A program made the position numbers and the translations under genes. DNA of 64,000 nucleotides. Source: a bacterium. GTDB taxonomy: Bacteria > UBA10199 > JAIBAG01. Below the pieces are notes generated by a model that was given only the letters and a program-made list of their open reading frames with translations, was not told the origin of the DNA and did no database searches. Of this stretch, positions 4,723 to 64,000 are shown piece by piece (position 1 is the stretch's first letter; each line of letters opens with the position of its first letter). Location of the stretch: assembly GCA_019695305.1 (NCBI GenBank), contig JAIBAG010000014.1, forward strand, positions 1 to 64,000. Reading direction: 5' to 3'.

Positions 4723-5215
4723 TTATTTCGTCGCATGAATAACTACTTCGTTGTGTTTAGTCCAGAGAATTTTAAAATCCTGGAAGCCAGCTTGTTTTAA
4801 CAGTTCAGTCATCTGTTCGGCAGTAATCATGTGATCTTTTTCACGTTCTTTTTTGAAATTCTCTTCTGCGAAATCTTCCGTCGCCCCCATTGCTAGTGCT
4901 ATTTCTTTACGTTCGGTAAAGCATCTTTCGAGTTCGGCGGTATCAGAAAAGCTCACAAGATCAGTCCAGACAAAAATTCCACCTTTTTTAAGCCACTTAT
5001 AAATATTGTTTATTAGTCGTGATTTGTCTTCATATCGTATATTATGAATGACTAAGTTTGAGAGTACAGCATCAAAACTATCTGGATTAGCTTCAAAATC
5101 TACAGCGGACATCTTATGAAACCTCAAGGTGGAATTTTTGTCTTTTAGTCGTCTTTTAGATTCTTCAATCATTGACTCTGAAATTTCAACTAAATCAACT
5201 GATTGAGGTAATGTA
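4723..5215 (-). pseudogene. SAM-dependent methyltransferase, 5'-truncated
   Basis: The reading frame carries the middle and C-terminal part of a class I methyltransferase: VDLVEISESMIEESKRRL (end of motif I region and acidic motif II), FDAVLSNLVIHNI (motif IV) and WLKKGGIFVWTD. The N-terminal helix and glycine-rich motif I are missing. In-frame codons continue upstream past the internal ATG at 5172 until about 5215, where the divergent 1290-aa gene begins. The gene was therefore probably cut at its 5' end when this cassette was inserted. It is unlikely to bind SAM. Confidence 0.65.
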
Positions 5216-11134: not shown

Positions 11135-12574
11135 ATGATGCGCATATTTATTTTTATTATTTTAATGTGGCTGTCGGCCTGCGGTGGTGCAACAAGTGAT
11201 ACTGTGCAAGCTGATAAAACCCAAGACCCTCCTCAAAAGTCTGATGATGGACCCGATAGTGGTGAAGCTTTAAGCGAATCTGATTTTAGTGATACTCCTT
11301 TTACCTATACCCTTGAACGCGGGCGAACTAATGTTGAGTTATTGGAACAAATCCCCATTACGCATTTAAATGCCTTGCGGGCTGTTAAAGTTGAAATTCC
11401 AGATGCGGTAGAACGCAATGCTGTGTGTAACGATGGCTCTGCTGGTGTTTTTTATGTGCGTAAAGGACAGCTTGCCGACAGATGGCTTTTTATTTTGGAA
11501 GGTGGCGGGGGATGTAATTCGCTGCAAGAATGTAAAGATCGTGTTTTAGAAAAACCCAATTTAATGACCAATAAAAACACCCCCGATGTATTAGACAAGT
11601 CAGACGGTATTTTTGATCCAAGCGACAACAATATATTGGGCCGTGTTAATTTGGTTTATGTGCCTTATTGTACCTCCGATTACTTTACGGGTTCGGTGGA
11701 TGCCAAGGATTCACCGGTGCCCGGAGTGGCGTTTCATGGTCATGATATTTTAGACGCTATTTTTAACGATTTGCAATCGCAACGTTTTCAAAATTTACCC
11801 GATTTAGATGCCGCTTCTACAATTATTTTATCTGGGTTTTCGGCGGGAGGAACAGGTGCTTATGCCTATGTGCCTTTTTTAAGCGATCGCTTGCCAGAAA
11901 GTGTAAATTTATTTGGCCTTATCGATTCGTACGGACCCGAAATAGAAACTTACAGTAATGTTCAAGAATATGCCAGCATGCGTAGCGATACGCAGTATGA
12001 TGATTTAGAGTATTTACCGTATACATTAAAGATGAACGATATTATCCGCGGGACTTTTGCTCAGGAGCCTGAAGGTGATGCTGTTGTAGATGAAGAGGGG
12101 CATTTAATTGGGTACGGTAGCAGTGCAGCCTGGCAGCTGGCTGTTAACAAAAAACTTTATTTGCCCTGCGCCAACAAAGCTTTAGAAGATAAATTACCCT
12201 TAATGGTTTGCTTTAAAACGTTGTATTTGCGCCAAACTTTTAGTACTCCACTTTTATTTTTTGGATCACTTCGTGATCATTATATTCTCAATCTAAAGGG
12301 TTTGACCGATGATATGCAGGGCCAATATCCCAATGCCGTTTACCAGTTTGCACACGATAAAATTAAAACTTATGTAGCCGAACGTCTTCCTCAAGATGCT
12401 ATATTTTTGTACGACGACAATTTTCATGTGGGTTTACACACCAACCCATTTTACTATGGCGCTATTAACAACGTAAGATTTCCCAAACTACTTCTTGATT
12501 GGATGCTGGGGCAAAACACTCAATCTGTTTTTATTGAAAATCCGTCAAAGTATGGTTTTAGTAAAACCAATTAG
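11135..12574 (+). CDS. Pectinacetylesterase/Notum-family lipoprotein
   Basis: A 479-aa exported lipoprotein: MMRIF plus a hydrophobic core ending in the lipobox LSAC. An Asp/Ser-rich linker leads to an alpha/beta-hydrolase domain. FILEGGGGC and a VPYCTSDYFTG segment, plus the nucleophile elbow GFSAGG, mark the pectinacetylesterase/Notum family; a C-terminal DNFHVG supplies the likely catalytic His. Such enzymes remove acetyl or acyl groups from polysaccharides or proteins; the substrate here is unknown. A well-spaced sigma-54 promoter precedes it, linking it to the activator at 22397. The start is ATG 11135 after GAGG. Confidence 0.8.
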   Translation: MMRIFIFIILMWLSACGGATSDTVQADKTQDPPQKSDDGPDSGEALSESDFSDTPFTYTLERGRTNVELLEQIPITHLNALRAVKVEIPDAVERNAVCNDGSAGVFYVRKGQLADRWLFILEGGGGCNSLQECKDRVLEKPNLMTNKNTPDVLDKSDGIFDPSDNNILGRVNLVYVPYCTSDYFTGSVDAKDSPVPGVAFHGHDILDAIFNDLQSQRFQNLPDLDAASTIILSGFSAGGTGAYAYVPFLSDRLPESVNLFGLIDSYGPEIETYSNVQEYASMRSDTQYDDLEYLPYTLKMNDIIRGTFAQEPEGDAVVDEEGHLIGYGSSAAWQLAVNKKLYLPCANKALEDKLPLMVCFKTLYLRQTFSTPLLFFGSLRDHYILNLKGLTDDMQGQYPNAVYQFAHDKIKTYVAERLPQDAIFLYDDNFHVGLHTNPFYYGAINNVRFPKLLLDWMLGQNTQSVFIENPSKYGFSKTN

Positions 12575-14019: not shown

Positions 14020-14262
14020 ATGAAGCAGAATCAAAACATGCACTTACTGCTGCCAACCAGTTCACTGCAGGTCCTTAAAAAGCAGGCTAAAATCACCAAA
14101 AAGTCGGTGGCCCAGCTTATTCGGGAAGCGATCCACAAAGTATATGGTGGCAGCGATACTACTGAGCGCGAGAAGGCTTTTACCCGCTTGATGAATGTAA
14201 GTGGGTTGCCAGCTGAAGATTGGGAAACTACAAAAGAGAGTTTGTTAAAACGTTATGAATGA
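14020..14262 (+). CDS. Ribbon-helix-helix antitoxin (VapB-like)
   Basis: An 80-aa protein with an N-terminal ribbon-helix-helix: NMHLLLPTSSLQVLKK (strand + helix), then KKSVAQLIREAIHKVY (second helix). The C-terminal tail (LPAEDWETTKESLLKRY) would wrap the toxin. I chose ATG 14020 over ATG 14011 because the upstream codons belong to the operator repeat. It overlaps the PIN toxin start by 8 bp. It probably represses its own promoter at the two TACATGTA sites. Confidence 0.8.
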   Translation: MKQNQNMHLLLPTSSLQVLKKQAKITKKSVAQLIREAIHKVYGGSDTTEREKAFTRLMNVSGLPAEDWETTKESLLKRYE

Positions 14263-62509: not shown

Positions 62510-63319
62510 ATGAAAAAAATTTATGAGAGTTTAAAACAATTACTTCACGATCATCATTACGATCGTGCCAAACGTGTATTGGTTACCGTTTTTGGCTTTA
62601 CCTTTTTACTTATCGGCTTGGCAATGATCTTTTTGCCTGGGCCTGCACTTATTGTGATTCCAGCAAGTTTAGCGTTACTGGGTACCGAGTTTGTATGGGC
62701 TAGACGCTTTTTAAGAAAATTTAGGCAAGAAGTAAACCGTGTGCGAGGGATTATTTTTTCGGATAAATCCAAAGAGCCATTGGTAGATGTAGAAGAAGTG
62801 GATCCAACTATATTGGTTGATATTCGATACGCCACCACTAATAATTTTACAGGAAAAATTTTGTATCCATCGGCCAAATGTTTGTTGCGTCAAAGTGTGG
62901 CTGAAAAGCTTTCTATGGTGCAGCAGGAGTTGCTGGACTTAGGGTATGGTTTAAAAATTTGGGATGCTTATCGCCCGCACTCTATTCAAAAAATTTTATG
63001 GGATCATATGCCCGATGAACGCTATGTGTGTCATCCTCATCAGGGTTCTATGCATAATAGAGGTGCAGCTGTGGATGTTACGCTGGTTGATAAGGATGGT
63101 AATGAGCTGGAAATGCCCACAGCCTTTGATGAGTTTTGTGAAAAGGCTCATCGATCCTACCAGAACTTGCCCCCTCCCATTTTAAAAAATAGGCAGCTCT
63201 TGGAAGGTATGATGAAGCAGTTTGGCTTTACGGGGCTAGCTACCGAATGGTGGCATTTTAACTGTGATGGTGGTGAACATTATTCTATTTTAGACACCCC
63301 CCTTGATAACAAAATTTGA
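62510..63319 (+). CDS. PGPGW membrane domain fused to VanX-type D-Ala-D-Ala dipeptidase
   Basis: A 269-aa fusion. Residues ~20-75 are a PGPGW-type small membrane domain (LAMIFLPGPALIVIPASLALLGTEFVWAR). Residues ~95-265 are an M15D dipeptidase: DAYRPHSIQK, SMHNRGAAVDVTL (His and Asp zinc ligands) and GLATEWWHFN (catalytic Glu, ligand His). VanX/DdpX enzymes cleave free D-Ala-D-Ala. The membrane anchor probably holds the enzyme at the inner membrane, facing either side. Confidence 0.82.
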   Translation: MKKIYESLKQLLHDHHYDRAKRVLVTVFGFTFLLIGLAMIFLPGPALIVIPASLALLGTEFVWARRFLRKFRQEVNRVRGIIFSDKSKEPLVDVEEVDPTILVDIRYATTNNFTGKILYPSAKCLLRQSVAEKLSMVQQELLDLGYGLKIWDAYRPHSIQKILWDHMPDERYVCHPHQGSMHNRGAAVDVTLVDKDGNELEMPTAFDEFCEKAHRSYQNLPPPILKNRQLLEGMMKQFGFTGLATEWWHFNCDGGEHYSILDTPLDNKI

Positions 63320-63552
63320 TTTATCACGTTTGTTTTTTTGGAGTGACTTCTTTATTTTTTTAAAAACTCAAATAATATTATATACTTAAAATGCCATTCT
63401 GGCTCCCCCTTCTTTTTTAGGTGATAACAAACTGTTCTCACTTTCTGCATTTTGGCCTCATTTTGCTGTCAACATTTAAGGTGCTTTGTACGATAACTAA
63501 TATGTAGGTTGAATGGTGTTTTGAAAACTTGGTTTTAAGCGGTACGAGACGG
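63320..63552. other. Intergenic region upstream of the structured RNA
   Basis: AT-rich, with a possible promoter TTGAAA (about 63522) - 16 bp - TACGAG (63544) just before the predicted RNA 5' end. No gene seen. Confidence 0.4.
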
Positions 63553-63700
63553 AAGCCCCGGATCGGCCGGCAACTTTCATTTCTTTATATAGAGTGAGAG
63601 TGAAGGGATGGTAAAACGTCCCCTGACTCTTTCCCTATAGTAGCCTTCTGGCTACGAAATGCCCAGATTGTTGCCGGCCGATCCGGGGTTTTGTTTTTTA
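63553..63700 (+). ncRNA. Candidate structured RNA, ~145 nt
   Basis: Two perfect 19-bp complementary arms, CCCCGGATCGGCCGGCAAC (63556-63574) and its complement (63670-63688), enclose 95 nt and are followed by a T-run (63689-63699). Inside are CATTTC/GAAATG (63578-63583 with 63656-63661) and the hairpin GTAGCC-TTCT-GGCTAC (63640-63655), plus a further stem AGAGT..GGGA/TCCC..ACTCT (63597-63630). The arms pair as a multi-branched RNA. No protein is encoded. I do not recognise it as SRP, 6S, RNase P or a known riboswitch. Confidence 0.6.
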
Positions 63701-63714
63701 AAGCACTTCAAAAT

Positions 63715-63744
63715 AAAAAAGGCATCTAAAAAGATGCCTTTTTT
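63715..63744. terminator. Bidirectional terminator GGCATCT-AAAA-AGATGCC
   Basis: A 13-bp stem AAAAAAGGCATCT/AGATGCCTTTTTT with a 4-nt loop. It terminates the minus-strand gene at 63763 and can also back up the upstream RNA. Confidence 0.85.
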
Positions 63745-63762
63745 ATTTCTATTGTCAAAATT

Positions 63763-64000
63763 TTATTGAGTAAATTTTTCCATAAGCTCGTCATAATACT
63801 TAAGATGGTTTTCTTGGTTTAAGCGACGCTTAGCTGTAAAATTAACAACAATAGAATGCGGTAAAACACGTGCCGATTCGGTAGTAATGGTGTTTTGGCC
63901 AATCATCAGTGTGTATTTGCCACGAGGTTCAAGGGCGTTTTGCAATTTAATACGGATAATAGACTCCTGATAAGAGGTGTCGGTTTCAATAGTAATATTA
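63763..64000 (-). CDS. C-terminal part of an unknown protein (5' end beyond window)
   Basis: The reading frame is open to the window edge. About 78 residues are visible, e.g. SIIRIKLQNALEPRGKYTLMIG and SIVVNFTAKRRLNQENHLKYYDELMEKF at the C-terminus, beta-rich then helical. No family recognised. Confidence 0.55.
   Translation of the reverse strand, partial: NITIETDTSYQESIIRIKLQNALEPRGKYTLMIGQNTITTESARVLPHSIVVNFTAKRRLNQENHLKYYDELMEKFTQ

Follow-up and report, generated by a model that had tools for sequence, protein, structure and literature searches.

What is the strongly folded stretch that lies between two converging genes near the end of the window, the 64,000-nucleotide stretch of DNA analysed here? 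The folded element covers positions 63553-63691 of the plus strand and forms a Y-shaped structure of about 140 nt (Table 1). It has a T-run beside its fold, contains no open reading frame, occurs once and has no known relatives. We tentatively read it as an orphan structured small RNA, self-terminating and about 140-150 nt long, either transcribed in its own right from the plus strand or released from the 3' end of the upstream gene (probability about 0.4).

Table 1. Features of the folded element and its surroundings, with positions in the window
Feature	Position	Strand	Basis or remark
Upstream gene, fusion of a PGPGW transmembrane domain and a D-Ala-D-Ala dipeptidase (Peptidase_M15)	62510..63319	+	Pfam PF09656, PF01427
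Closing stem, 5' arm (AAGCCCCGGATCGGCCGGCAAC)	63553..63574	+	Inverted repeat I1, 22 nt, 95% complementary; 19-nt perfect core 63556-63574
Stem P2, 5' side CATTTC	63578..63583	+	Fold; partner 63656-63661
Long inner hairpin, interrupted by four 1x1 mismatches	63588..63639	+	Fold; tip GGGATG-GTAAAA-CGTCCC at 63605-63622
Short inner hairpin GTAGCC-TTCT-GGCTAC	63640..63655	+	Fold
Stem P2, 3' side GAAATG	63656..63661	+	Fold
Closing stem, 3' arm (GTTGCCGGCCGATCCGGGGTTT)	63670..63691	+	Fold and inverted-repeat search
T-run TTTTGTTTTTT, putative intrinsic-terminator tract	63689..63699	+	Sequence, rarity of such runs, comparison with spaced inverted repeats
Separate 17-bp A/T-flanked hairpin	63711..63748	.	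Inverted repeat I2, 100% complementary
Convergent lipoprotein-like gene, 3' part; 361 aa, extends beyond the window end	63763..64000	-	No Pfam match

The closing stem consists of 19 consecutive Watson-Crick pairs without a mismatch (CCCCGGATCGGCCGGCAAC, 63556-63574 with 63670-63688). Two A-U pairs and one G-U pair extend it to 22 pairs. Its 19 bp have a G+C content of 79%, versus 42% across the window, and the arms of the inverted repeat are 95 nt apart. The T-run TTTTGTTTTTT directly adjoins the perfect stem and has 10 T in 11 bases; runs with at least 10 T in 11 occupy 0.04% of the window positions. The 95-nt core between the arms folds as a three-way junction of stem P2 and two hairpins. 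The initial annotation had proposed a 19-bp closing stem with GC-rich arms, two or three inner stems and a terminal T-run, and each of these features was recovered.

The region 63540-63710 has a minimum free energy of -88.3 kcal/mol (z -10.1), and none of 200 shuffled sequences folded equally well. Folded alone, the inner 95 nt reach a z-score of -7.3. The plus-strand fold of 63553-63695 (-83.5) and the minus-strand fold of 63549-63691 (-77.3, z -10.0) are nearly equal. Because the strands fold almost alike, the fold by itself carries no strand information. The plus strand is preferred since a T-run follows the stem on this strand only.

Within the window, the element is the longest perfect inverted repeat with a spacing of at most 250 bases. 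A simple estimate from the window composition expects about 1e-4 perfect 19-bp arms within about 150 bases per 64 kb, and up to about 0.01 per 64 kb at the composition of the arm itself. Spaced long-arm inverted repeats occur at 12.6 per Mb in 792 kb of the element's genome, about half of them belonging to one repeat family, at 6.6 per Mb in other bacteria and at 4.8 per Mb in phage contigs. Among 26 such spaced repeats from the same genome, other bacteria and phages, the element is the only one in which at least 8 of the 11 bases past the stem are T (1/26). The combination of this T-run with a strongly folded interior distinguishes it among the 26 repeats. Elsewhere in the window, an 18-nt perfect inverted repeat with arms 140 nt apart (4968-5143) encloses an unstructured interior. 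One of its arms overlaps a 150-codon minus-strand reading frame, and it is perhaps a template-switch product.

A GC-rich stem with an immediate T-rich tract is the signature of intrinsic (Rho-independent) terminators, and the element has both. Unlike these terminators, which have a short loop of 3-10 nt, it carries a structured interior of 95 nt between the arms, and its closing stem is at least twice the usual length. A simple terminator scan with loops of 3-8 nt does not report it. The element may instead be a giant 3'-UTR terminator that ends or stabilises the upstream dipeptidase mRNA and has no independent existence, a possible reading that fits almost as well. It starts 233 nt 3' of the dipeptidase stop codon on the same strand, and the simple scan found no intrinsic terminator in between. 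Long spaced stems with T-rich ends also occur in other bacteria, for example at L065:7874-7960 and L033:2976-3069. If the element is only a terminator, it shows what size such structures can attain. Two observations weigh against this reading. The interior is far more structured than its composition predicts (z -7.3), which would be superfluous for a plain terminator. The separate A/T-flanked hairpin is, judged by its sequence, probably a bidirectional terminator for both convergent genes. As it is complete and lies within 25 bp, a larger structure would be redundant for termination alone. Both points favour the small RNA. Beyond the convergent lipoprotein-like gene follows a DUF4423 gene. Relatives carrying the dipeptidase gene are without the element in a synteny comparison.

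Transcription of the small RNA, its termination, its stability and any partner are what we infer from these features. As RNA polymerase exits the element, the second GC-rich arm would pair with the first, and the long closing stem beside the U-tract would halt transcription. The same stem could then lock both RNA ends together and protect them from exonucleases. The working part would be the three-way-junction core with its long capped hairpin, short hairpin and two single-stranded joints, which may bind either a protein or mRNA. A weak promoter of the element could set the 5' end, or this end could arise by processing of the 3' end of the dipeptidase transcript, for example by RNase III or RNase E. 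With the start placed at the stem, TTGAAA-16-TACGAG (63521/63543) is the best promoter-like site; it has 8 of 12 matches, a score attained by 21% of random 18-nt stretches and thus no better than chance, although host rules may differ. A somewhat better promoter-like site is located further upstream at 63359-63386. In the earlier proposal of a stable small RNA with its own terminator, the stable fold and the terminator signature stood; an independent small-RNA gene found no such support, as there is no good promoter at the expected place and no homologue was found. Because a promoter and homologues are lacking, the small-RNA reading stays below a probability of one half. Should it be transcribed, the element would add a well-defined candidate regulatory RNA to a phylum that is thinly sampled (46 genomes).

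No reading frame of at least 40 codons crosses the element, and the overlapping frames have 22-36 codons only. The search with 4227 Rfam families at curated gathering cut-offs gave no match to the element; the sole passing match in the window was a tRNA. A second pass at E <= 10 yielded weak matches over 63350-63800, all below cut-off and most of them on the adjacent A/T-rich hairpin. The initial annotation was thus right that the locus has no ORF and resembles no familiar RNA family.

The overall layout resembles that of 6S RNA (SsrS, RF00013), which is also single-copy and has its 5' and 3' ends joined by a long closing stem. Membership in RF00013 is defined by a covariance-model score of at least 46.4 bits. 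The genome encodes an ordinary 6S RNA at C4:49317-49500 with 87.6 bits, so the element is not its missing 6S. In this 6S RNA, the 3' strand of the long-range closing stem leads directly into TTTTTT, and the closing stem of the element likewise adjoins a T-run. The comparison may offer a useful precedent within the same genome for a closing stem that runs into a T-run, and an end-sealing stem that doubles as a terminator would, if the element is transcribed, mirror this layout. An identification as 6S RNA was rejected, with no RF00013 match to the element even at E <= 10. Unlike 6S RNA, the element has no sequence or covariance match, measures 139-147 nt versus about 184 nt, and has an additional 6-bp stem that holds a three-way junction. 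Bacillus subtilis has two 6S RNAs. That the element is another 6S-like RNA, divergent and binding RNA polymerase, is the most improbable of the readings considered. It would agree in topology only: with P2 open, the core resembles an apical stem above a bubble, which carries a small hairpin on its 3' side, and the closing stem below. The missing RF00013 match and the presence of a true 6S RNA in the genome both speak against it.

Searches for relatives gave no homologue. Blastn and a covariance model found no second copy in the same genome. The covariance model R1 found none in 45 other genomes of the phylum, blastn none in a sample of 385 genomes, and none were found in annotated phages or plasmids. 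R1 was built on one sequence, so distant relatives would escape detection. The nearest genomes compared belong to other families of the same order, and the orphan status is therefore unsurprising. With no homologue in any search, the fold shows no sign of selection. A 34-nt match, G366 (E 3.9e-5), was rejected, as the locus has no similar fold context. At least 120 unrelated matches to a 17-base arm pattern in genome contigs were judged, as a group, to be chance hits of a short GC-rich word.

Several other assignments were dismissed. The RYYYAAC/GTTRRRY ends of an integron attC site are absent by eye. A retron ncRNA would be accompanied by a reverse transcriptase, and none was present among the adjacent genes read. 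A riboswitch or leader would need a plus-strand gene downstream, and there is none. The element does not overlap the coding frame of the lipoprotein gene and is thus not antisense to it. Pairing of a small-RNA seed UUUCAUUUCUUU with AAAGAAAUGAAA was rejected since the target word occurs 4 times, which is no enrichment over shuffled sequences (mean 1.8, range 0-8).

The perfect 19-bp stem speaks against the small RNA in one respect: a stem without any mismatch could have originated as a DNA palindrome. Intergenic near-palindromes of the ERIC and Correia type are MITE-like, 100-200 bp long, multi-copy and fold as RNA (PMC2229807, PMC10969869). The element is likewise an intergenic near-palindrome that folds as RNA, but it is single-copy in its genome by blastn and covariance model, and an assignment as a multi-copy repeat or MITE was rejected on these grounds. 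A palindrome without RNA function, that is, a MITE-like or template-switch repeat left behind as the final copy of a mobile element or made by palindrome correction, is unlikely. It would account for the perfect Watson-Crick complement over 19 bp and for both strands folding equally well, and it has company in the same genome. About 20 intergenic palindromes have unique, mostly perfect arms, and an unrelated Y-shaped palindrome occurs at L405:3611-3787. It leaves the T-run on one strand only unexplained, no flanking target-site duplication was seen on reading the sequence, and two further points count against it: the element is single-copy, and the 20-copy family's covariance model does not match it.

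The Y-shaped near-palindrome at L405:3611-3787 (contig C1) is 177 nt long, with a minimum free energy of -98 kcal/mol and an interior z-score of about -8. It lies between divergently oriented ORFs, has no T-run and is single-copy in the part of the genome examined.

The 20-copy family is the wider gain from checking the element, combining unique perfect arms with a covarying core. Its palindromes are 147-173 bp long (loci L453-L472; for example L403:5964-6122, L403:13026-13179, L408:6430-6580, L436:4465-4628 and L450:9920-10087) and share the core CCCTCAC...GTGAGGGCGTCATCTAATAGA. Three spaced repeats with this core came from a first genome sample and two more from a larger sample. A covariance model of the core, R2, matched 21 places in the genome and none in 45 relatives of the phylum. 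Arms of 29-44 nt (armscore 25-40) flank the core in 20 of the 21 places, and their outer parts are copy-specific. The arms are mostly perfect over 27-44 nt, and 13 of the 20 copies show perfect self-complementarity along their whole length. In the 8-bp stem of the core, pairing is kept through two-sided changes at 6 of the 8 pairs. Most copies are located between genes of the same orientation, 0-25 nt past a stop codon. The family has no Rfam match at cut-off. Within the window, R2 matches nothing at E <= 10, and the element is not a family member. It is conceivable, though very improbable, that a single process in this lineage creates or maintains perfect arms around structured intergenic cores, and that the element, L405:3611-3787 and the 20-copy family are its products, with different cores and transcribed as end-sealed RNAs. 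Three related imperfect palindromes of 76 nt also lie within 5.2 kb of the same genome (L410:8932-9005, 11371-11445 and 14055-14130).

At its tip, the long inner hairpin has the form GGG-NN-GGTAAAAC-NN-CCC, which recurs as a hairpin in viral contigs (L144, L146-L265). No link between the element and phages via GGTAAAAC is claimed, as an exact 18-mer match is estimated to be about chance for a viral collection of this size. In the viral hairpin, the NN/NN positions form Watson-Crick pairs in 96 of the first 120 matches versus 7.5 expected, and in 35 of 120 in a permuted-loop control. The paired matches seen in bacterial chromosomes read as P-loop coding sequence. Of the viral matches, 78 of 121 do not fall in long ORFs, most of them lying 4-25 nt past an upstream stop codon, and less than one third of the hairpins are followed by a T-run. 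Ten upstream genes were tested: five encode major head proteins, which belong to several families, and another encodes a single-strand DNA-binding protein.
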